From positions 1 through 49,734 of IMG/VR virus record IMGVR_UViG_3300042731_005083: a stretch of DNA of 49,734 nt; one strand, written 5' to 3'. The stretch comes from a virus. Below the pieces are notes generated by a model. The model had not been told where the DNA came from. It did not search any database and was given only the letters and a program-made list of their open reading frames with translations. The position numbers and the translations under genes were made by a program. This document shows, in pieces, positions 1,975 to 48,732 of the stretch. Within the stretch, counting starts at the first letter, position 1; each line of letters starts with the position of its first letter.

Positions 1975-2222
1975 TCTTCCGATTTAATAAAACCGGTTCC
2001 GCTGGTATCAGCCTTTTCAGGCCGTCCAGCGTCGAACCGGTGACAGCTTGCGTGACTCCACAAGGTTCACAGGTTGCTCGCTTGTCTTCTCCCTTCCCGT
2101 TCCACGGATCAAATAGGCGCAGACCTTACGCCTTTCAGGCCTTTCCGCGTCCTGTTTCGTCTGGCCGTGTGCCGGATATGCTCCGGCTGTCTCGCTCTGC
2201 TGTTATGCTCCACGGCTCCGGT
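1975..2222 (-). ncRNA. Candidate structured RNA upstream of the nuclease gene
   Basis: About 260 nt with no convincing gene, more GC-rich than its surroundings and full of helices on the minus strand. At 1992-2041 there is a 50-nt hairpin: an 8-bp outer helix (ACCGGTTC/GAACCGGT), a 2-nt bulge, a 6-bp helix (CGCTGG/CCAGCG), an asymmetric internal loop and a GGCCT/AGGCT stem capped by GAAA. At 2164-2216 a GCCGTG/CACGGC helix encloses a GCCGGA/TCCGGC hairpin. Between them are smaller pairs such as ACAAG/CTTGT. The 3' hairpin is followed by TTTTATT, so it could also act as a terminator. It could be a leader, attenuator or independent RNA. Confidence 0.5.
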
Positions 2223-2223
2223 T

Positions 2224-6575: not shown

Positions 6576-7018
6576 TTCAATCCTCCGTTTGCAACTGCAT
6601 AAGAAATTATAACGATTGCTCCCATGGCAACATACCGTACTATTTCAGATATAACTGACTTCCGCACTGTCGCCTTCCTCTGCTCCTCTCTCTCCAGAGC
6701 CTCCTTTGCCGGAGCATTTTTCAGGTCTTCAATTTCTCCTTCTACTTTTTCAACTTTCTGATCCCAATTTTTTTTTACACCATCAATCTTATCGTCAACT
6801 TCTTTTTTGAATATTTCTATTTTATCATGTATTTTTGCACGGGATTCTAAAGCGTGTTCCTGATTGACTTCGATTCTCTTAAACCTTTCGTTTGTCTTTT
6901 CTGCATAATTCTCTATTCGGTCTCCCAATCTTTCAAGCTCGCCATTTGTTTTTGTCTGACCTTCCTGAATCTTTAACAGGATCTGATATGTTTCTTTGTC
7001 CACGCTTTTTCCCTCCAT
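6572..7018 (-). CDS. XhlA-like coiled-coil protein with C-terminal anchor
   Basis: 148 residues. A long charged coiled coil (about 10-120) is followed by one hydrophobic helix near the C-terminus (VRYVAMGAIVIISYAVA). This is the design of XhlA-type lysis accessory proteins that sit on the inner face of the membrane next to the holin. It is the first gene of the lysis cassette. Two starts are possible: the ATG at 7018, coupled to the fibre stop, or a GTG 5 codons later with an ideal GGAGG SD. Confidence 0.6.
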   Translation of the reverse strand: MEGKSVDKETYQILLKIQEGQTKTNGELERLGDRIENYAEKTNERFKRIEVNQEHALESRAKIHDKIEIFKKEVDDKIDGVKKNWDQKVEKVEGEIEDLKNAPAKEALEREEQRKATVRKSVISEIVRYVAMGAIVIISYAVANGGLK

Positions 7019-7794
7019 TACATGTACCTTATTATTTTCGTTTTCCCTATACCGGCGGTTCTTGTCGTGGTTCCTGTTCTGGGTGTCCCGCTTGGTCCAT
7101 CTGTGATGGGTTCGTGAACAAAAGAGATTCCGGCATTATCAACCAGCACTACATCCGAAGGCTGACCACCAAACGGGGCGTCTCCAACGCCGCCCCCGAA
7201 AGCCGCATTTGTACCCTCCAGAGTGTGGTAGTGCCCCTGCAATTTGTCAGAGTGTTCAACACCCAGAGGAGAAGCATCCTGCGTCACTCCGTTGACCGCT
7301 CTTGTGCTGGCGTTCGCTCCGAAAACAGGAACGTTCCGTGTATCAGGAATTTTTACCGTTCCACCTGTCGCGAAAACAGCAGATCCGGGATTTCCCCAAC
7401 GGCCGGCAACATTACAGATATCAAATAGAGCCTCAAATTCCGGACCTTCGTGATCAGCACCTGACCCTGTGTCTCCTATCGTTGTCCCGTCTTCAATCAG
7501 AAAACCTGTCGGGGCCACCGCTCCGGCATACTCGATTGTCCCACCGATGGGAACAACTATCTGCTCCAGAACCGCCACCCTTGCCGTCAGTGCGGTAAGG
7601 GCATCTTCATTGTCTTTTACCGTTACAGTTCTTCCTGCTCCGCCGATGTTTGATTCCGCTTCAGCAAGATTTTCCGCCAACACATCTGTCCACGGCATCC
7701 GTCTGTTTGGATCTGACCCCGGCTCGTGTACATAAACCCCTGCCGCTCCTGATGGAGATGATATGTTTGTTAATTCAGTTATATCCTTTCCCAT
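7018..7794 (-). CDS. Tail fibre with phage tail-collar domain
   Basis: 258 residues. Residues 80-160 contain the T4 gp12-like collar sequence: VPIGGTIEYAGAVAPTGFL then the GT...Y/LFDICN...GRWG stretch and FATGGTVKIPDTRNVPVFGA, a fold that caps short tail fibres. A GHYHT metal-binding-type motif follows near 188, then a Gly/Thr-rich receptor-facing part. It follows the repeat-bearing fibre gene by 13 nt. The stop overlaps the lysis gene start. Probably a receptor-binding tip. Confidence 0.75.
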   Translation of the reverse strand: MGKDITELTNISSPSGAAGVYVHEPGSDPNRRMPWTDVLAENLAEAESNIGGAGRTVTVKDNEDALTALTARVAVLEQIVVPIGGTIEYAGAVAPTGFLIEDGTTIGDTGSGADHEGPEFEALFDICNVAGRWGNPGSAVFATGGTVKIPDTRNVPVFGANASTRAVNGVTQDASPLGVEHSDKLQGHYHTLEGTNAAFGGGVGDAPFGGQPSDVVLVDNAGISFVHEPITDGPSGTPRTGTTTRTAGIGKTKIIRYM

Positions 7795-7807: not shown

Positions 7808-9154
7808 TTATATTCCTGGCGTCCAGACTGAATCTCCTGATGTCCCAGCAATATAAAGCCCGTTGCCGTAAGTAAGGGATATAACAGATCCATCCAATGT
7901 CTGGCGATTTGTCCATGTAATTCCGTCTGAAGATGTCCAGACTGAATCTCCTGATGTCCCAGCAATATAAAGCCCGTTGCCGTAAGTAAGGGATCTAACA
8001 GCTCCATCCAATGTCTGGCGATTTGTCCATGTAATTCCGTCTGAAGATGTCCAGACTGAATCTCCTGTTGATGTCCCAGCAATATAAAGCCCGTTGCCGT
8101 AAGTAAGGGCATAAACTGGTCCATCCAAAGTCTGGCGATTTGTCCATGTAATTCCGTCAGGGGACGTCCAGACTGAATTTCCTGATGATGTCCCAGCAAC
8201 AAAAAGCCCGTTCCCGTAAGTAAGGGATATAACAGATCCATCCAATGTCTGGCGATTTGTCCATGTAATTCCGTCTGAAGATGTCCAGACTGAATCTCCT
8301 GTTGATGTCCCAGCAATATAAAGCCCGTTCCCGTAAGTAAGGGCTAAAGCATTTCCATCCAAAGTCTGACGCTCTGTCCATTTTACTGTTGACATCAATA
8401 CTCCTATAGACATTCCCAAAAGAGAGGTTTCCGGATTAGAAAATGTTTTTTTTCCTGTTATTGTTTGATCTCCGTCTAATAGATCAACGTTCACTTCCGA
8501 TGGTCCGTCCTCCAATCCTCCGCCTGATTTTGCAACCTGAACATATCCAGCCGTCCCTTCCAGAAGATATGATGACGGATCAGGCTTTGCATCCGTGTTC
8601 CGTGGCGTTATCGTGAGAAAAGTTGACCCGTCTCCGACCAATGTCGCGATAGAAAGATCCTTTGAAGTGGGAGGAGTTGTGTTTATCGTAATTGTGTATG
8701 ACGGAGTCTTTTCATAAGCATAACTCCCGCTGGCCTTTTTTCTGTCCCGAGAATATGCCGTTGTCTCTGCGTACTGAATTTTCACATAATTTGTTGAAGC
8801 TCCGTCCAGTGTTGCCGATGACATAACTTCGTTTGTTATCGCCGGTGCAGAGACGAAAACATCCATTTCTTCCGTACTTGTCGAAGGAGGAGAGGAAGAA
8901 TCCCAGTCTCCTGGTATTGTTACATCAAATCCCACTACTCCAAAAAGCGCAGTAACATTTATCCTGTCATACCCTGAACCCTGAGAAACAACTCCGCCAT
9001 ATATCAGGCAATTCTGGTTCCCGAATATCGCCTTCAGCGCTTTCCCCAGCTCTGACCTGTGGAAATTGATATCTCTCATGAGATCCTGTGCGTAGTATTT
9101 GTCGCCAACTGCCAGCGGATACCCGCCTGAATACTCTGTATTGTGCTTATTCAT
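7808..9154 (-). CDS. Tail fibre protein with tandem beta-propeller-like repeats
   Basis: 448 residues. The first 130 are unique and probably attach to tail protein I. From about residue 255 there are five to six tandem 39-40-residue units containing LTYGNGLYIAGTS, SVWTSSDGITWT and NRQTLDG. Regular blades with this S-x-DG-x-x-W phrase occur in beta-propeller and sialidase-like folds, which suits glycan binding. The repeats are nearly identical in DNA too, so unit number could change by recombination. It lies between tail protein I and the collar fibre. Confidence 0.7.
   Translation of the reverse strand: MNKHNTEYSGGYPLAVGDKYYAQDLMRDINFHRSELGKALKAIFGNQNCLIYGGVVSQGSGYDRINVTALFGVVGFDVTIPGDWDSSSPPSTSTEEMDVFVSAPAITNEVMSSATLDGASTNYVKIQYAETTAYSRDRKKASGSYAYEKTPSYTITINTTPPTSKDLSIATLVGDGSTFLTITPRNTDAKPDPSSYLLEGTAGYVQVAKSGGGLEDGPSEVNVDLLDGDQTITGKKTFSNPETSLLGMSIGVLMSTVKWTERQTLDGNALALTYGNGLYIAGTSTGDSVWTSSDGITWTNRQTLDGSVISLTYGNGLFVAGTSSGNSVWTSPDGITWTNRQTLDGPVYALTYGNGLYIAGTSTGDSVWTSSDGITWTNRQTLDGAVRSLTYGNGLYIAGTSGDSVWTSSDGITWTNRQTLDGSVISLTYGNGLYIAGTSGDSVWTPGI
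7815..8392 (-). repeat. Five to six near-identical 117-120 bp tandem repeats in the fibre gene
   Basis: Units of about 117-120 bp differ by a few bases and by 3-bp indels (GTST, GTSS or GTS at one point), so the frame is always kept. The DNA identity exceeds what protein conservation needs, which points to recent duplication or gene conversion. Confidence 0.85.
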
Positions 9155-17587: not shown

Positions 17588-19420
17588 TTACAGCCGTAAG
17601 ATTCCGAGACCGATCTTGATTGATCCGTTCGGAGCAGGGAATGTGAAGTAACAGTCAAAATTTGTCTGTCCCGCATTCAACCCTGTCTGAGTATTATTTG
17701 TCAGATCCGCTTTGCACTCAAAGTGATCATCCGGTTTTGATTCAACTCCGGTATCGGGATCGAAAGTCTGCCCGAAAGTCTCTCCGACCGGGACGCTTCC
17801 TGTTGTTCCTTCGTTCCACATTTTATGGAAAAACTGAAGAATCGCCGATTTGTTGTTTTGGAGCCGTGCATAAGTGGTCGGCATATTTTCTTCATCCCTG
17901 AGACTGTCGATGAAAGAAACCTTGAAAAAGTTTCTCATGATAATCCCTTCGGAGAATCTGTATGCTTCATCCGTTGAATAGGTAAAAGCGTTTCTCACAA
18001 CAATTCCCACGCCTGAAATTTCCTGAATACAATTTATTCCGGCGTTCGCCAGATCCGTCCTGTCAAAGTTATCGGGAAACTGAATTCCGATAACTGAATT
18101 CGCGCCGACAAGCGGTTCCTGCTGGATTGCCTGTGAGTGGTGAATCCCGTATTTTGCGATAACCCTTACCCACTGGCCCATGACATGACCGACGTTCGGG
18201 ATCTCTCTGTCCGGAGCGTTTACGGCAGAAGAGAAAGGATCTGTTACACCCAGCCAGTGTGCCATGATCTTTCCATATACCGCATCCGATCTCTGAAGAT
18301 TGTTCCCGATAGTAATTAACTGACTCTTTGAACGTTCACTCTGTATTGTCCTGAACCATACCGGATTATCGTCCTCACGGGAGGCGCAGTATGCTTCTCC
18401 TGCTGTCTGCACCACGTCCACGATCGTTTCAGGGTTCGCCAGCATACGGACAGGAAGATCATCAAAAAGATGAAGTGTTACATCCCAGTGTCCCGCAGTA
18501 TATCCGGCTGTTCCGTATGCGCCATTCGTGGGGTATGTCACGGCAGAGTCTGAAGAAATCAACCTGTCCGCCAGTGTGTCCGAGGAGGAATATACAGCAG
18601 AAAGCCACGGGGAATCATTGAAAATGTTCCCGACGTAGAATTCCGTCACTTCGCTCTCTGTTGTGCATACGATCTTTCCCCTGTCAATATCGACTTCCTG
18701 TTCAACCCCTGTGATATCTTTTCTGTAAGTCTGAATAGTAAATCCTGGAATGCTGACAACATCATTTACGGCAAGAGCGGCTGCGCTGGCCGAAAAATTT
18801 CCTGACCATGAAATCCTTTTCAGGTTTTCATCAATGGCAGTTATTTTTTTATACTCCGTTCCTGGAGTACCGCCTGTTGCAACAAATTTGACAATGTCTC
18901 CGACTCTGAAGCCTATAACAGAATCCAGTTCCGCATAACTCTGCCCTGTCGCGGCGCACGTTGCCGATGCCTGAGTTGAGAAACGATCAGCTGCTGTGAT
19001 CAATGTTCCTGTCCTGTTACCGCTTGCTCCGTATTCAGGCTCACCTTTGTATGCCCCGGAGAGGATTAAAGCGTCCGCATCTGCTCCGTCATTCGCAACT
19101 TCTCTTGTCGCCACAACAGCGTCAATATTTCCGGCGCCATCGTTTCCCAGATATCCGGCAATGTAAACCTCTCCGGGAACGTTTTTAAGGTTATCGAAAA
19201 AACCTTTTACCACATCGGGGCAAAAGGCAGACTCGTCAATCTGTTTCCCGAAAATCTCCTGAAATTCAGAATATCTCCGGCAGAGCATTGCCTTGTTATA
19301 TCGCCTCTCAAGAAAACCCATATAACCGGCTTTATTGAATTCGGCCTGCCTTACCTGTCTGGAACGCTTCACCGGCAGATTTTCGCCGTAGGTTCCAAGC
19401 CTGCGTAATTCCTGTGCCAT
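17588..19420 (-). CDS. Contractile tail sheath protein
   Basis: 610 residues. The C-terminal half has the family features: a segment with IQSERSKSQLITIGNN, GHVMGQWVRVIAKYGIHHSQAI, an ISGVGIVVRNAFTYST stretch and the YRFSEGIIMRNFFKVSFID strand-helix used for sheath-sheath contacts. A beta-rich insertion (about 150-240, with GFRVGDIVKFVATGG) probably projects from the surface. It is the gene that shows the phage has a contractile tail. It follows a 66-residue gene by 3 nt. Confidence 0.85.
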   Translation of the reverse strand: MAQELRRLGTYGENLPVKRSRQVRQAEFNKAGYMGFLERRYNKAMLCRRYSEFQEIFGKQIDESAFCPDVVKGFFDNLKNVPGEVYIAGYLGNDGAGNIDAVVATREVANDGADADALILSGAYKGEPEYGASGNRTGTLITAADRFSTQASATCAATGQSYAELDSVIGFRVGDIVKFVATGGTPGTEYKKITAIDENLKRISWSGNFSASAAALAVNDVVSIPGFTIQTYRKDITGVEQEVDIDRGKIVCTTESEVTEFYVGNIFNDSPWLSAVYSSSDTLADRLISSDSAVTYPTNGAYGTAGYTAGHWDVTLHLFDDLPVRMLANPETIVDVVQTAGEAYCASREDDNPVWFRTIQSERSKSQLITIGNNLQRSDAVYGKIMAHWLGVTDPFSSAVNAPDREIPNVGHVMGQWVRVIAKYGIHHSQAIQQEPLVGANSVIGIQFPDNFDRTDLANAGINCIQEISGVGIVVRNAFTYSTDEAYRFSEGIIMRNFFKVSFIDSLRDEENMPTTYARLQNNKSAILQFFHKMWNEGTTGSVPVGETFGQTFDPDTGVESKPDDHFECKADLTNNTQTGLNAGQTNFDCYFTFPAPNGSIKIGLGILRL

Positions 19421-36447: not shown

Positions 36448-37212
36448 TTATCTTTCCGGAACCCATTCGTAGACTATTTTTGCATCCTGACCAGTATGAA
36501 GTCTCCACTTCTCCCCGTCAAATGATGGAACAAATCCACGCTTCCATAAATCTATTCCCGGCTGAAATGGATTTTCTCCGACTTTATGTTCTATGTATTT
36601 CCACTTTTCTATCCCGTAAAAAAGAGAAGATACATAAGCCCAGACCGAATTCCAGACCGAAGCCCTGACCGAAACCCCGACCGAAGCCCCGACCGAATTC
36701 CAGACCGAAGTCCAGACCGAAGCCCCGACCGAATCCCAGACCGAAGCCCCGACCGAATCCCTGACCGAAGCCCAGACCGAAGCCCTGATCGACGTCCATT
36801 TTTTTAAAAGATCAATATCTTTTTCCGTTACAGGCTTTTCTTTTTTTAACGGATTAACGGGAAACGAAATATGCAAAAGATCACGTCCAGCAGCTTCTGA
36901 ACCATTTTTTAATCCGTCCATGACTTCTTTTTTGTTCAGTTTCCGAAGGATTTTGATGTATTCATATCGCCGCTTGAACTCGTTTATTTCAACAGATTTA
37001 CCCCACACTTCACATTCGAAAACCGTTTTATCCTGTCTGAAAGCGTAAGAAAGTCCATCAAAATCAACGGCATAAAATCCAGTAGAACATTCATTATTTT
37101 TGTTATTATCAAAATCATTACAATGATATTCTTTACCAATCTCAAACCTGAACCCTTGATACGGGCTTGTAAGGTCTGTGTTAAGAACCTTATATAGTAT
37201 TTTCTCTTTCAT
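36448..37212 (-). CDS. Repeat protein with SVW/GAS hexapeptide-type tract
   Basis: 254 residues. The N-terminal 130 have an FRFEIGKEYHC phrase as in a family of phage proteins that accept pentapeptide-like repeats (recalled as DUF7666). Residues about 140-192 are a run of four-residue units of the type (G/R)-A/D-S-V with W or R, probably a beta-helix-like coil. The C-terminus has EKWRLHTGQDAKIVYEWVPE. The repeat arises from a 12-bp DNA unit. Function unknown, perhaps a DNA-mimic or binding scaffold, but charge is not strongly acidic. Confidence 0.6.
   Translation of the reverse strand: MKEKILYKVLNTDLTSPYQGFRFEIGKEYHCNDFDNNKNNECSTGFYAVDFDGLSYAFRQDKTVFECEVWGKSVEINEFKRRYEYIKILRKLNKKEVMDGLKNGSEAAGRDLLHISFPVNPLKKEKPVTEKDIDLLKKWTSIRASVWASVRDSVGASVWDSVGASVWTSVWNSVGASVGVSVRASVWNSVWAYVSSLFYGIEKWKYIEHKVGENPFQPGIDLWKRGFVPSFDGEKWRLHTGQDAKIVYEWVPER
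36640..36792 (-). repeat. 12-bp tandem repeat array inside a coding gene
   Basis: About 12 copies of a 12-bp unit close to GACCGAAGCCCC on the + strand, with C/T and A/C variants. Each unit adds four codons, so gains and losses keep the frame. Confidence 0.85.
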
Positions 37213-37854: not shown

Positions 37855-38622
37855 TCATTCTCCTCCGAATAACTGCGCCTGAACCAGCTCGTCATCATTC
37901 CTGATCAATCCCGGCTGGCTGTCAACGTCTCTCTTGTATTTCTCAAATCTGAATTCTTGCCTCATCCAGATTTCTTCATTGTGTTCCAATCCTTCATAGT
38001 CCAGACCCATATCATAACAGGCAAGCCGCATGCTTCCAGATCCACAATGAGTATCCAGTATCTTCATTCCCGGTTTCGCATCCATGGACAACTGCCACTT
38101 ATACAAGGCAACCGGCTTCTGACAGGTATGGATTCTCTTCTCTCTCCGTTCGCTGTCTTTAAAGACTCCGCACCATTGATGTTCAAATATCCGCATTGTC
38201 CCAGTCTTCAAACTTGTCCAGCAGAATTCACCATCCGCAAATCTATTTCCTCCGGTCTTCTTGTTCCAGATCCGGGGAGCAACACATTTCCCGAGATTAT
38301 CCAGAAAATAGTTTCCTCCCCATATCTCGACCACTTTCCCGACTCTCAGCACTTCACGGAAAAACTCTTCCGGAGGCGGTTCATCCGGTTCCAGCAGATC
38401 CCCGCCAGAAAACCTGTTCTTTGCGAATCCTGTCAATTCTCTGTTTGATCCTATTCCGTACCATGGGTCAGAGAATATTAGATCATAGGAATTATCCGGC
38501 TGTTTTTTCAGGAAGTCCAGATTGTCCATACATAAAACCAAATTTGTCACGTTTTTCTCTCCTCTCTGCCCTCTGGAGCGTGGGGAATGCGTCAATTCCA
38601 TTTGACCGGCAATCTCTTCCAT
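37855..38622 (-). CDS. Beta-class N4/N6 DNA methyltransferase
   Basis: 255 residues from the ATG at 38622 (SD AGAGGTG). Motif IV is SDPWYGIG (51-58, DPWY instead of DPPY). Motif I is LDTHCGSGSMRLA (189-201, the FxGxG loop as CGSGS). The order IV then I marks beta-class enzymes. Between them HTCQKPV (166-172) resembles the HPTQKP motif X. It methylates an exocyclic amine of A or C, probably for protection against restriction. A longer upstream frame is unlikely to be translated. Confidence 0.85.
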   Translation of the reverse strand: MEEIAGQMELTHSPRSRGQRGEKNVTNLVLCMDNLDFLKKQPDNSYDLIFSDPWYGIGSNRELTGFAKNRFSGGDLLEPDEPPPEEFFREVLRVGKVVEIWGGNYFLDNLGKCVAPRIWNKKTGGNRFADGEFCWTSLKTGTMRIFEHQWCGVFKDSERREKRIHTCQKPVALYKWQLSMDAKPGMKILDTHCGSGSMRLACYDMGLDYEGLEHNEEIWMRQEFRFEKYKRDVDSQPGLIRNDDELVQAQLFGGE

Positions 38623-44243: not shown

Positions 44244-45008
44244 TCAACTATCATCTTCTTCGGGTCCGAAAATCTTATATTTTCCTTCTGCTATATCATA
44301 CAGCTTCGTATGCTTCAGGAATTTCTCTTTTTCTGATTCTTTCATTCTCCTCATAAAATCTCTTTTCTCGCTGTTATTTGGGAAAACGAAAGTTACTGTG
44401 TAATCGTTCGCATCGACCATGTGAGTCGTCCCTGTCTGGTTTTCTTCCTTGACTTTGTCTCTATGTTCTTTCTTGGCCTGTTTGATCTTGTCGATTTCTC
44501 TCATCCTTTCCAGCGTATCCTGATCCTCTTTGACCTCCTCTGGAGTATTCATATCGAATTCCGTCCCGGAGAACATCATGTCCAGACCATACTTGTCAAA
44601 GAGCAGATCCTTCTCAAAATCAATATCCGGATGATCAATGTGAATCTCCCCCAGAGCTTCAACATCAAATTCCCCCATGATATCGGTGTTGTTAAGCCGT
44701 ATATTGGCCGTGATCTCCTCTTTCTCGTCCATGGAAACAAGGGCAATCGTCAGATCATAGTCATCTTTTTTCAAAATATTGTCCATCTGCGCGAGTCTCT
44801 GATGCCCTCCCACTATGTTCCCCGTTACCTTGTTCACGATTATGGGGTCCAGAATTCCATGCTCCCTGATTGACTTTCTCAGGTTTTTCTCCGCTGTTGC
44901 GGTTATCTTTCTCGGGTTGTACGGTGCTTTTTTTATCTGCTTCCGGTTCATCCTGACAATTTCGTATCTCTCCAGTCTGTTTGCACCTTTCACCTTATTC
45001 TCATCCAT
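44244..45008 (-). CDS. ParB-like (ParB/Srx) domain protein
   Basis: 254 residues. The N-terminal 110 match the ParB nuclease-like fold: NPRKITATAEKNLRKSIREHGILDPIIVN (31-59) and VGGHQRLAQM (66-75), with GGHQR as the CTP/catalytic loop. The C-terminal half is charged and helical with a late beta region (YTVTFVFPNNSEKRDFMRRM). Phages often pair such a gene with a PP-loop sulphotransferase-like gene, as here, overlapping by 8 nt. The reaction is unknown. DNA modification is one possibility. Confidence 0.75.
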   Translation of the reverse strand: MDENKVKGANRLERYEIVRMNRKQIKKAPYNPRKITATAEKNLRKSIREHGILDPIIVNKVTGNIVGGHQRLAQMDNILKKDDYDLTIALVSMDEKEEITANIRLNNTDIMGEFDVEALGEIHIDHPDIDFEKDLLFDKYGLDMMFSGTEFDMNTPEEVKEDQDTLERMREIDKIKQAKKEHRDKVKEENQTGTTHMVDANDYTVTFVFPNNSEKRDFMRRMKESEKEKFLKHTKLYDIAEGKYKIFGPEEDDS

Positions 45009-45642
45009 AATTCTCTACCCTTATCCTTTCCGCCTCAATATGCGGATATAAAGTGATAATTTTCCTGTAATCCTCCGGAAAATTGTTATAGATATACATT
45101 AAAGCGTCTCCTTTCAGAGAGTTAATATCCCTGTATCCCATCCGGTAAGAATCCGGCAGAACAAGTCTTTTTTGCTTCACATATTTTCTGATATGCGGTT
45201 CTCTCCATTCTGCCAGCGGATAGATTTTCTTGTATTTCCAGTCAATTCCATGGTCTAAATGCGCCATCATTCCTCGGCGCTGAAGTGATTCATCTTTTCT
45301 GTATCCGTAAATAATAAATGAAATATCAAATTTGTCACGGAGAAAATTCTCCATATCTGCCTGACCAATTTTCCGCTTTTTGTCTCTTTCCATTATGAAT
45401 TTTACGTCATTATGCGGAAATCTGTTTATTTTTATCTTGTATCGTCTTTCGTAGTATTGAATTACCTTTTCCTGAAATGATAATCCTTTGACAAAATATA
45501 AAAAAACAGGCTCCAGCGTTAAATTCTGCGCCTCTTCCATCAATAAAGACAGCAAACAAATTGAGTCTCTTCCTCCGGAGAACATAAAAATTGACTTTCC
45601 GACTTTATGATTGATATATCGTATGTCTTCCAGCAAGTCCAT
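45001..45642 (-). CDS. PP-loop ATPase, PAPS-reductase-like
   Basis: 213 residues from the ATG at 45642 (SD AAGGAAAG). SGGRDS (22-27) is the PP-loop that binds ATP pyrophosphate. FPHNDVKFIMERDKKRKIGQADMENFLRD and YPLAEWREPHIRKYVKQKRLVLPDSYRMGYRD are like the C-terminal half of PAPS-reductase/DndC relatives. Together with the ParB-like partner it resembles a module seen in many phages. An intrinsic terminator (attenuator?) stands between the previous gene and this start. Confidence 0.8.
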   Translation of the reverse strand: MDLLEDIRYINHKVGKSIFMFSGGRDSICLLSLLMEEAQNLTLEPVFLYFVKGLSFQEKVIQYYERRYKIKINRFPHNDVKFIMERDKKRKIGQADMENFLRDKFDISFIIYGYRKDESLQRRGMMAHLDHGIDWKYKKIYPLAEWREPHIRKYVKQKRLVLPDSYRMGYRDINSLKGDALMYIYNNFPEDYRKIITLYPHIEAERIRVENYG

Positions 45643-45659
45643 TAAATTCTTTCCTTGTA

Positions 45660-45704
45660 AAGAAAAAGGCACGGTTTTTCACTGGTAGAAACTTCCGTGC
45701 CTTT
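45660..45704 (-). terminator. Terminator or attenuator ahead of the PP-loop gene
   Basis: A 9-bp stem (AAGGCACGG/CCGTGCCTT) with a 20-nt loop and a run of T interrupted by one C. It begins 5 nt after the 39-residue gene stops and ends before the SD of the PP-loop gene, and no promoter follows it. Either readthrough is allowed or the element is regulated. Confidence 0.7.
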
Positions 45705-46620: not shown

Positions 46621-46690
46621 CGGCATTCAGCCGTCCGGCTTCACTGTCTCCAGTGATTCCGGATAGCTGGCCGGATTGCTCCGGCCTGCC
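46621..46690 (-). ncRNA. Three-hairpin intercistronic RNA element, copy A
   Basis: 70 nt. Hairpin 1 GGCCGGA/TCCGGCC with GCAA. Hairpin 2 TCCGG/CCGGA enclosing TCACTG/CAGTGA with GAGA. Hairpin 3 CGGC/GCCG. It starts 4 nt after a stop codon. Unlike the others it is not followed by an SD and gene. It lies in front of a gap and promoter P8. Its helix 2 differs from copy C at two base pairs, both compensated. Confidence 0.75.
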
Positions 46691-46694
46691 GTTT

Positions 46695-46874
46695 TCAGCA
46701 TTCCAGATATTCGTACTCCTCCAGATAATTCTCACAAATACTTTTCATTCTCTCGGCGTACGATCTTTCAGAATCGGAAAGCTCTTCAAGCTCTCCAATT
46801 TCTTTCAGTGCATCAACGCAGTCCTCAAGATCTCCGGCAGTGTTTTGAAATCGGCAGTAACTCATGTTTGACAT
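46695..46874 (-). CDS. Conserved small phage protein (SNMSYCRF family), 59 aa
   Basis: 59 residues. It starts SNMSYCRFQNTAGDLEDC, a phrase common to unnamed phage proteins from many hosts, and continues with an acidic helix (EIGELEELSDSERSYAERM). SD CGGAGG is provided by the end of RNA element B. Function unknown. Confidence 0.7.
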   Translation of the reverse strand: MSNMSYCRFQNTAGDLEDCVDALKEIGELEELSDSERSYAERMKSICENYLEEYEYLEC

Positions 46875-46890
46875 AAAAATTCCTCCGTTT

Positions 46891-46960
46891 CGGCCTTCAG
46901 CCGTCCGGCTCCGCTGTTGCCAACGGTTCCGGATAGCTGGCCGGATCTCTCCGGCCTGCC
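46891..46960 (-). ncRNA. Three-hairpin RNA element, copy B
   Basis: 70 nt. Hairpin 1 with GAGA tetraloop, hairpin 2 with CCGTTG/CAGCGG (one G-U) and GCAA, hairpin 3 CGGC/GCCG. It begins 3 nt after the upstream stop. The sequence after it (AAACGGAGG) is the SD of the next gene. Confidence 0.75.
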
Positions 46961-46962
46961 GG

Positions 46963-47346
46963 TCATACTCTGTTTTCTTTCTTTCTCAAAAAACTTTCAG
47001 AAATTGCTTTCAGCTCTTCCATTTCCATTACAGCAAAAACGGAAGTTTTTGAAACACATTCCAGCCTTACACACTCATGATAATAATTTTTTTTCGCCTC
47101 TTCGTTCAAATAATTCATGACGTTTTTAATGTATTCACATCTTTCTTTCTGTCTTTTCAGATAGTACTCAAGCTCTATTTTATGATAGGTGTTTACAGCG
47201 TGAAGAATTCCAATTTTAAAGTAATAATAATCCGGATAGGCTTTCTGTACTTCTTTCACCAGAACGTCTGTTATCACTTTTCCGGTTTCTGTTCTCACTT
47301 CCGGTAATTCCTCTTCCACGTTCAAACTGTCAATAACAATTTTCAT
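46963..47346 (-). CDS. Hypothetical protein, 127 aa
   Basis: 127 residues, with a beta start (KIVIDSLNVEE) and helices rich in Tyr/Lys/Glu. Three Cys are scattered. The start overlaps the preceding gene's stop. Not recognised. Confidence 0.6.
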   Translation of the reverse strand: MKIVIDSLNVEEELPEVRTETGKVITDVLVKEVQKAYPDYYYFKIGILHAVNTYHKIELEYYLKRQKERCEYIKNVMNYLNEEAKKNYYHECVRLECVSKTSVFAVMEMEELKAISESFLRKKENRV

Positions 47347-47525
47347 CTTCTTGCCTCCGTCTTTCTTCCGTGAACATTCTCCAGCCTTTCAAGCTCTTCG
47401 GTTGTTATGGTTGATTCATCAACAATAACAGTTCTACCATTTCGGCATACCAGAATACCAGATTTTCCGACAAAGTCACGATGAACTCTTTTTTTGATTC
47501 TCTCAAACCTTTCAGCCTTTGTCAT
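47343..47525 (-). CDS. Hypothetical protein, 60 aa
   Basis: 60 residues. Basic helix (KAERFERIKKRVHRDF), then a beta pair (ILVCRNGRTVIVDES). SD AAAGAGGAA follows RNA element C. Not recognised. Confidence 0.6.
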   Translation of the reverse strand: MTKAERFERIKKRVHRDFVGKSGILVCRNGRTVIVDESTITTEELERLENVHGRKTEARR

Positions 47526-47543
47526 TTCCTCTTTCCTCCGTTT

Positions 47544-47613
47544 CGGCTTTTAGCCGTCCGGCTCCGCTGTCTCCAGCGGTTCCGGATAGCTGGCCGGATT
47601 GCTCCGGCCTGCC
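47544..47613 (-). ncRNA. Three-hairpin RNA element, copy C
   Basis: 70 nt. Hairpin 1 GGCCGGA/TCCGGCC with GCAA, hairpin 2 with CCGCTG/CAGCGG and GAGA, hairpin 3 CGGC-TAAAA-GCCG. It begins 3 nt after the previous stop and ends with AAACGGAGG before the next gene. Confidence 0.8.
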
Positions 47614-47616
47614 TGC

Positions 47617-47883
47617 TTATTGCGCGAATCTCGGACAGAAACAATTTTGCAGCTCAATTTTTTCTCTGTCCAAATTGTTAACAATTCCGGCTACATCATG
47701 CCAGAAATTAAATTCGTCCGCATTCAGAAAATCATCAAGTCTTAACGGAATGATGTTACAGTGAACCGCTTCCAAGTCCATAGTGATAGAAAGTCTACCA
47801 GTTGAAAGTTCTGGTTTTTCCTTCATGATCCTATCAACGATCTTTCCGATTTTTTTCCGGTCTTCTCCGTCTGCAAAATTCAT
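47617..47883 (-). CDS. DUF6874-like phage protein, 88 aa
   Basis: 88 residues. SITMDLEAVHCNIIPLRLDDFLNADEFNFWHDVAGI and a C-terminal NCFCPRFA match a phage family I recall as DUF6874 ('mdl.avHl...pL.l..lL.a.dfnF.HDv.GI......l..cF.PRf'). First gene after promoter P3. SD GACGGAGG. Function unknown. Confidence 0.7.
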   Translation of the reverse strand: MNFADGEDRKKIGKIVDRIMKEKPELSTGRLSITMDLEAVHCNIIPLRLDDFLNADEFNFWHDVAGIVNNLDREKIELQNCFCPRFAQ

Positions 47884-47917
47884 CCTTTGTTCCTCCGTCT
47901 CTCAATCTTATACCTAT

Positions 47918-47983
47918 AGTTTAATACATTTTTAATAATTTGTCAATGAATTGTTTGTGAAGAAGTATGAAGATTATGTGAAG
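47918..47983 (-). promoter_or_regulatory. Promoter P3 with three CTTCAYA boxes
   Basis: -10 TAAACT (47918-47923), 17-bp spacer, consensus -35 TTGACA (47941-47946). CTTCAYA copies at 47956-47962, 47966-47972 and 47977-47983 are spaced 10 and 11 bp, that is 9, 19 and 30 bp upstream of the -35. Immediately preceded by the terminator at 47984. Confidence 0.85.
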
Positions 47984-48036
47984 AAAAAAACGGCCTGTCT
48001 GGAGGCTGGAAAATGTCCAGACGTCCAGAACAGGCC
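47984..48036 (-). terminator. Intrinsic terminator
   Basis: An outer stem GGCCTG/CAGGCC extended by TCTGG/CCAGA, a large loop, and seven T. It ends the SSB-proximal transcript after the small membrane gene (48097) and precedes promoter P3. Confidence 0.8.
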
Positions 48037-48096
48037 AAACAAAACGGAGACCGGCAAGGATAACCGGCAAAAGAATTTCCTTTTACTCTTTCGCCG

Positions 48097-48216
48097 TTAT
48101 CGCTTCTTCCGGTTCCTTCTCTTCTTTACTTTTTCGGCGATTTCAAAAATAGAAACCATGATAACACATGATACACTCATGAAAATAATCGTCCAGTCAA
48201 ATCCTGTCCATTTCAT
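48097..48216 (-). CDS. Small single-pass membrane protein, 39 aa
   Basis: 39 residues: KWTGFDWT, one hydrophobic helix (IIFMSVSCVIMVSIFEIA) and a very basic end (KKRRNRKKR). N-out orientation is likely by the positive-inside rule. SD CGGAGG at the end of element D. Function unknown. Confidence 0.6.
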   Translation of the reverse strand: MKWTGFDWTIIFMSVSCVIMVSIFEIAEKVKKRRNRKKR

Positions 48217-48232
48217 AATAATTCCTCCGTTT

Positions 48233-48302
48233 CGGCTCTCAGCCGTCCGGCTTCACTCTCAGGAATAAAGCCGGATAGCTGGCCGGATTGCTCCGGCCTG
48301 CC
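48233..48302 (-). ncRNA. Three-hairpin RNA element, copy D
   Basis: 70 nt. Hairpins 1 and 3 as in copy C. Hairpin 2 has a longer continuous outer helix (TCCGGCTT/AAGCCGGA) and an inner part without GNRA loop, so it has changed sequence but still folds. It begins 3 nt after a stop and is followed by AAACGGAGG. Confidence 0.75.
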
Positions 48303-48305
48303 GGT

Positions 48306-48635
48306 TTACATTATCCAGAGCGGCCTTTTTAAAGCAATGGTCAATCCGGTTTTCTCTTCAATCAGATCAATAAGCTGATCACCGAAAACGCCGTCAATTT
48401 TTTCCTCTCTGGTTATTCTCGGATTCATGCCAGAAACAAACTTGACAAATCTTATATCGTAAAGGTCTTCGCCTTCGTCATATTTGATCGTCACATGGTT
48501 AAATCTTGCACGGCATTTCAGGCCGTTCAAAATCAGCTTGTTGTCTCCGTCATGAAGAATCCGACAACCTGTCATCATGGCAACCTGTCCGGCTCCGCCG
48601 ATCTGATCAGCTATAACCTCGTAAGTCTTTTTCAT
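48306..48635 (-). CDS. Conserved small phage protein, 109 aa
   Basis: 109 residues: helical start (KTYEVIADQIGGAGQVAMMTGC) and a beta-rich body (VTIKYDEGEDLYDIRFVKF). Similar to an unnamed family with 'QlG...f..mTGak...l.i...DlY.v.f' that I know from phage genomes. First gene after promoter P4. SD GACGGAGG. Function unknown. Confidence 0.65.
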   Translation of the reverse strand: MKKTYEVIADQIGGAGQVAMMTGCRILHDGDNKLILNGLKCRARFNHVTIKYDEGEDLYDIRFVKFVSGMNPRITREEKIDGVFGDQLIDLIEEKTGLTIALKRPLWIM

Positions 48636-48666: not shown

Positions 48667-48732
48667 AATTTAATACGCTTTTAACAACTTGTCAATAAAT
48701 TTTGTATGTTGTTTGTGTGAAGAAATATGAAG
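48667..48732 (-). promoter_or_regulatory. Promoter P4 with two CTTCAYA boxes
   Basis: -10 TAAATT (48667-48672), a 17-bp spacer and consensus -35 TTGACA (48690-48695). CTTCACA (48716-48722) lies 20 bp and CTTCATA (48726-48732) 30 bp upstream of the -35. It follows the HNH-like gene. Confidence 0.85.

Follow-up and report, generated by a model that had tools for sequence, protein, structure and literature searches.

Four copies of a 70-nt element in a phage genome form a conserved RNA structure of the sense-strand mRNA, supported by covariation in the tip of one helix among the four copies of this one genome. The window, meaning the whole stretch of DNA analyzed, comprises the 49,734 bases of a phage record; its GC content is 44%, and 86 of its 89 gene calls fall on the minus strand. 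Phages LE3 and LE4 of the spirochete Leptospira are distant relatives, with aligned identities of 36% for the sheath, 46% for the major capsid, and 37% for the portal. Repeated intercistronic RNA structures are a kind already known from phages, and the element differs from the published analogues; as far as the collections searched can tell, it is of no named class and has no homolog. Its location at cistron junctions, its sense-strand structure, and its structure-preserving changes were established computationally, and from these we infer an action on RNA fate. We propose that the element would act in cis, between cistrons of non-structural operons, in mRNA processing or stability, and we put the probability of this reading at roughly 0.45.

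Placement of the four copies

All four copies are confined to 1.7 kb and run in the same direction as the genes, on the minus strand, a point that the first-pass annotation left unstated. Copy A (46621..46690) begins 4 nt past the TGA of a 59-aa gene (TGA AAAC), copy B (46891..46960) 2 nt past the TGA of a 127-aa gene (TGA CC), copy C (47544..47613) 3 nt past the TAA of a DUF6874 gene (TAA GCA), and copy D (48233..48302) 3 nt past the TAA of a 109-aa gene (TAA ACC). The first-pass annotation had listed four copies of exactly 70 nt, and both coordinates and lengths were confirmed by a gapless alignment in which 52 of the 70 columns are invariant. Its placement of the copies 3 to 4 nt past a stop codon stands as to the anchoring, with a measured range of 2 to 4 nt. 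A repeat finder independently recovered the copies as an 81-nt family with 80 to 91% identity to the reference copy, and a search for a fifth copy in the window returned nothing at E <0.2 besides the four and their plus-strand mirror images. Other repeats in the window lie inside genes: three to four units of 114 to 117 nt in a presumed tail gene (7808-8381) and an array of a 12-nt (four-codon) repeat (36612-36810).

The four genes whose stop codons precede the copies are mutually unrelated, and all genes of the region are on the minus strand. Upstream of copy D is the 109-aa gene (48306..48635; phrog_9437, unknown function), upstream of copy C the 88-aa DUF6874 gene (47617..47883; PF21779, E 3e-26), and upstream of copy B the 127-aa gene (46963..47346), and the 59-aa gene (46695..46874; phrog_8760, unknown function) sits between copies B and A. 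Downstream of copy D follows a 39-aa gene (48097..48216) and downstream of copy C a 60-aa gene (47343..47525). Two minus-strand promoter-like sites, each matching 10 of 12 consensus positions, precede the 109-aa gene (TTGACA-17-TAAATT, 48667..48695) and the DUF6874 gene (TTGACA-17-TAAACT, 47918..47946). A terminator-like long stem with a T run, called from sequence and predicted fold, lies on the same strand after the 39-aa gene (47984..48035). These sites and the stem between them delimit two small units, the first comprising the 109-aa gene, copy D, and the 39-aa gene, and the second the DUF6874 gene, copy C, the 60-aa and 127-aa genes, copy B, the 59-aa gene, and copy A.

This arrangement bears on whether the element could act in processive antitermination on the polymerase that made it, by analogy with the put RNA of phage HK022, which it may resemble. 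The element is about 70 nt long, forms hairpins, occurs in several copies, and occupies the first intercistronic position in both small units, and a terminator-like stem lies downstream of copy D. However, three successive copies in one unit, one of them past the last called gene, would be redundant for such a function, and we regard this explanation as very unlikely.

What follows the element is less constant than what precedes it. Directly 3' of the 70 nt in copies B, C, and D stands AAACGGAGG, the SD of the 59-, 60-, and 39-aa genes, respectively; the first-pass annotation was right about this role, but it had placed the motif inside the copies. Behind copy A stands AAATAGATAG instead of an SD, and some 195 nt there hold no called gene; the constant neighbor is therefore the upstream stop codon. 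An element that insulates or couples the downstream start site could account for the same strong SD at a fixed distance behind three copies, and predicted SD accessibility ranks 1st of 88 genes behind copy C and 6th behind copy D. Yet it ranks 84th behind copy B, and copy A has no start site to serve. The earlier suggestion that the element may set the translation of each downstream cistron is thus not supported as a general rule, and we consider translational control distinctly unlikely. A protein-coding repeat was also rejected, because stop offsets of 2, 3, 3, and 4 nt span all three frames and the frame relative to the upstream gene is not constant; within the element, frame 1 is interrupted by a stop in all four copies and frame 2 in two of them.

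Folding and covariation

The copies fold with energies of -43.5 to -46.0 kcal/mol, which correspond to z values of -8.4 (A), -6.4 (B), -7.3 (C), and -7.1 (D) against 200 dinucleotide shuffles each. Per base, no scored gap of the window is more stable than the three that hold copies B, C, and D (about -0.5 kcal/mol/nt), and the sense-strand fold is stronger than the antisense fold in all four copies. For the isolated 70-mer, the predicted minimum is a three-way junction composed of P1 (1-3/67-69), P2 (5-11/16-22, with a GNRA loop), and P3 (23-62). In a predicted three-hairpin alternative, positions 1-3 are paired to 24-26 and positions 58-62 to 66-70. Each fold precludes the other, and they differ little in energy: the three-hairpin fold lies within about 1 kcal/mol of the junction and becomes the minimum for copies B to D once the sequence is extended by 12 nt of 3' flank, and longer sequence context is predicted to tip the balance differently copy by copy. 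The three hairpins originally described for every copy are therefore retained as this near-equal alternative, but not as the minimum of the isolated element. The P2 loop is GCAA in copies A, C, and D and GAGA in B, and the P3 loop is GAGA in A and C, GCAA in B, and CUGA in D; this agrees with the earlier report of GNRA loops in hairpin 1 (P2) of all copies and in hairpin 2 (P3) of three.

A separate stretch of the window (2013-2223, minus strand), flanked by one gene that ends at 2224 and another that starts at 1962, is GC-rich (about 60%) and strongly folding without a convincing gene. It has no Rfam match and could be a non-coding RNA.

Variation among the four copies is concentrated in one helix, with 13 of the 18 variable columns falling in the P3 tip, the 20 nt at positions 33-52 (p about 7e-6, hypergeometric). 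Across the six core pairs of this tip, the stem columns differ from copy C at four positions in A, one in B, and eight in D, and none of the 18 pairs is lost. In a simulation that assumes copy C as the starting sequence, the same number of random changes leaves 10.6 of 18 pairs intact on average (p about 5e-6). Both sides have changed in three pairs, 35-50 (C-G/U-A), 37-48 (G-C/A-U), and, in copy D, 40-45 (G-C/C-G). The first two, together with the wobble at 38-47, had been noticed in the first-pass annotation, and the third adds to them. Copy D, whose helix had been described as changed wholesale, turns two mismatches of the other copies into pairs and pairs throughout. The covariation score was matched by 8 of 500 column shuffles and was abolished when the pairing partner was slid. 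The kept pairs and double changes bear out the earlier claim of covariation evidence for an RNA structure. The remaining helices (P1, P2, the P3 base, and hairpin 3) are invariant except for pair 62-66; they vary too little for a covariation test and draw their support from folding energy.

The structure can also be assigned to a strand. G-U pairs occur on the sense strand at 26-59 in all copies, at 38-47 in copies B and D, and at 36-49 in copy D, and since these wobbles become mismatches in the complementary strand, they point to a structure of the mRNA. Such strand specificity, along with exact placement past stop codons, argues against a function at the DNA level, such as replication iterons, packaging, or protein-binding palindromes. 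The repeats do cluster near an SSB gene and contain CCGG-rich palindromes, but CCGG is common genome-wide (367 found versus 344 expected from the genome's trinucleotides), and there is no skew turn at the region of the copies. We therefore judge a DNA-level role to be extremely improbable, and the CCGG count likewise led us to reject a restriction-site cluster.

The invariance of the constant half may reflect either sequence-specific recognition or recent duplication followed by homogenization. Extending the second possibility, the copies could be a selfish or recombination-mediated intergenic cassette, recently copied, whose fold is a by-product or an aid to copying. Their high identity over 81 nt between unrelated flanking genes, their close spacing, and the failure to find relatives elsewhere are consistent with such a cassette. 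However, the clustered changes all keep pairing, the wobbles are found on one strand only, and every copy has the same orientation and a near-constant stop offset, which together make a cassette improbable. The first-pass annotation had itself named recent duplication, with no conserved pairing elsewhere, as an outcome that would count against an RNA element. Part of that concern stands, since no homolog was found in the collections searched, but changes that cluster in one helix and invariably keep pairing speak against plain duplication.

Recognition of the constant half is the basis of another explanation, in which the element serves as a switch or as a site bound by a regulator. The constant half would be read by an RNA-binding protein of the phage or the host, or by another ligand, which would shift the three-way junction to three hairpins or back, coordinating both units. 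The number of invariant columns, where pairing alone would permit change, and the two exclusive, nearly isoenergetic folds are in line with such a switch. So is the loss of hairpin 3 in copies B and D when the first nucleotides of the element are masked, as by a simulated terminating ribosome. On the other hand, the regulator is hypothetical, the simulated-ribosome response differs among copies (SD accessibility rises in C and D and falls in B), repeated GGC/GCC segments by themselves yield alternative pairing, and recent duplication or gene conversion could explain the invariance. We consider a binding site or switch of this kind unlikely.

Homolog searches and nearest known systems

No curated family of Rfam release 15 matched the element at or above its gathering score, in agreement with the first-pass annotation, which recognized no named class. 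The best permissive match, PtaRNA1, was rejected as below the cutoff (23.1 bits versus a gathering score of 47) and lies on the opposite strand. BLAST of the copies against phages and plasmids returned short chance matches only. The exact 17-nt core occurs in 40 stretches of viral contigs, none of them a homolog and nearly all from one unrelated coding-like context, and the core with a variable middle matched 2 genome contigs and 25 viral contigs in unrelated contexts, with covariance model scores of at most 17.8 bits. A pattern for helix P2 found nine GC-rich matches, the best at 18.3 bits compared with 92 to 101 for the real copies. A host REP/BIME-type repeat was sought by the exact core pattern only, and the two matches among 84,980 prokaryote species genomes were judged to be chance.

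The relatives were searched with the covariance model that had been proposed at the outset. We gathered 23 related phage contigs by an alignment-based capsid search, and neither their whole records (best 8.6 bits) nor the retrieved relatives together with LE3 (12.8 bits at best, with an E value of 3) contained a convincing match. Queries with the terminase, ASCH, and PAPS-reductase genes found relatives that were only distant or short, or none. As no homolog was found, the conservation of the element is that of four copies in one genome. In the window, the PAPS-reductase-like gene adjoins a ParB-like gene with an 8-nt overlap (44244-45672, minus strand), a pair that presumably resembles phage-borne IbrB/IbrA pairs.

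Several familiar kinds of RNA were sought at the element itself. An intrinsic terminator is not indicated, as no minus-strand terminator-like call or U tract occurs at any copy, the 3' flank being AAACGGAGG or AAATAGATAG, and ARAGORN called no tRNA or tmRNA there. A hammerhead was defined by a CUGANGA ... GAAA core and an NUH cleavage site in a three-way junction; the window has no match to RF00008 or RF02276, and the element has no such core. Element and hammerhead (RF00008 and related) are alike in being compact and multi-helix, but the element has no Rfam ribozyme match, and hammerhead-like sequences occupy a similar gap in one relative, described below.

The nearest published analogues are the SAS and ESAS of cluster K mycobacteriophages, which occur in several copies close to gene starts in the non-structural genome region, are joined to the SD, and have no known function (PMC3203893). 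The SAS, located at the start site, is a 13-bp GGGATAGGAGCCC-type repeat, and the ESAS consists of two 17-bp inverted repeats upstream; their variation gives no support to pairing in the mRNA, and the authors favor DNA-binding sites (PMC3203893). The element is likewise multi-copy, non-structural in setting, and joined to the SD, but a visual comparison with the account in PMC3203893 revealed the defining features of neither. Unlike the ESAS, it varies in a manner that supports pairing, is a multi-helix RNA of fixed 70-nt length, and is anchored to a stop codon, whether a start follows or not. In T4-like phages, PeSL cassettes are, on what PMC4503421 relays of Arbiol 2010 and Comeau 2014, repeated intergenic stem-loops with an early promoter and a terminator stem-loop. 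Measured against that account, the element differs in having neither a terminator nor a strong promoter-like site, the 10/12 sites standing ahead of the units. One weak 9/12 promoter-like site overlaps the 3' end of copy D. Between its early genes, phage T7 has RNase III sites that are single irregular hairpins, intercistronic in polycistronic messages. Both they and the element are structured intercistronic RNAs, and the element differs in having three helices.

Structured RNAs of related phages and the proposed role

Related phages carry other structured RNAs in comparable positions. Using nhmmer, we found a different long hairpin of about 85 to 90 nt, unrelated to the element, in three copies each in G016 (L135-L137) and G019 (L141-L143) and in one copy in L115 (L115:8314-8395). 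Six of the seven copies lie 0 to 12 nt past a stop codon, and one G019 copy is 57 nt away. In each of G016, G019, and L115, one copy follows a sheath-sized gene at the sheath/tube junction. In G016 and G019 the gene after it has a homolog directly behind the sheath gene of LE3 and of the window; in the window, this gap is only 14 nt. The consensus helix is kept in most copies with no net covariation support (covariation term +0.74), and several members are at structural-gene junctions, unlike the four copies of the window. G017 has two hammerhead-like sequences in consecutive stop-to-SD gaps (L139:18060-18109 and 18418-18476, which are G017:38060-38109 and 38418-38476), with E values of 9e-5 and 0.009 for one genome. 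The second contains CUGAUGA, GAAA, and a GUC; both score under the Rfam gathering threshold, and among 14 control genomes, 2 likewise gave weak matches. The similar placement of these unrelated RNAs suggests that the phage group repeatedly recruits structured RNA to separate neighboring cistrons.

We prefer processing or protection of the message to downstream translation control because of copy A, the anchoring to stop codons, and the unrelated folds similarly placed in relatives. In the model we propose, the element would mark the cistron junction for RNase processing or would shield the 3' end of the upstream message from decay, and the small genes of one unit could thereby be expressed at separate levels, uncoupled from their neighbors. 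The constant sequence of P2, the junction, and the P3 base would be the part read by a nuclease or partner, and the P3 tip would need only to be double-stranded. In the predicted folds, the ends close either as P1 with an extended P3, giving the three-way junction, or as an extended P2 with a third hairpin. A more active RNA can also be imagined, in that a self-cleaving ribozyme or a ligand- or ribosome-sensitive switch of a new class might cut or gate the message between cistrons, the element filling the place taken by hammerhead-like sequences in a relative; we hold this to be a long shot. For processing or protection, the four copies offer a natural series with a common constant half and different tips and neighbors, in which the effect of an intercistronic structure on mRNA fate can be tested.

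Two minor observations concern the other contigs. The contig ends of G009, G017, G019, and G020 are direct terminal repeats of 55 to 204 bases, which suggests that these related contigs are complete. G004, a 60-kb phage tied to the window solely via an ASCH-domain gene, carries a GC-rich 56-nt structured repeat in three copies that start at stop codons (L050:3194-3249, 6967-7022, and 8368-8423).
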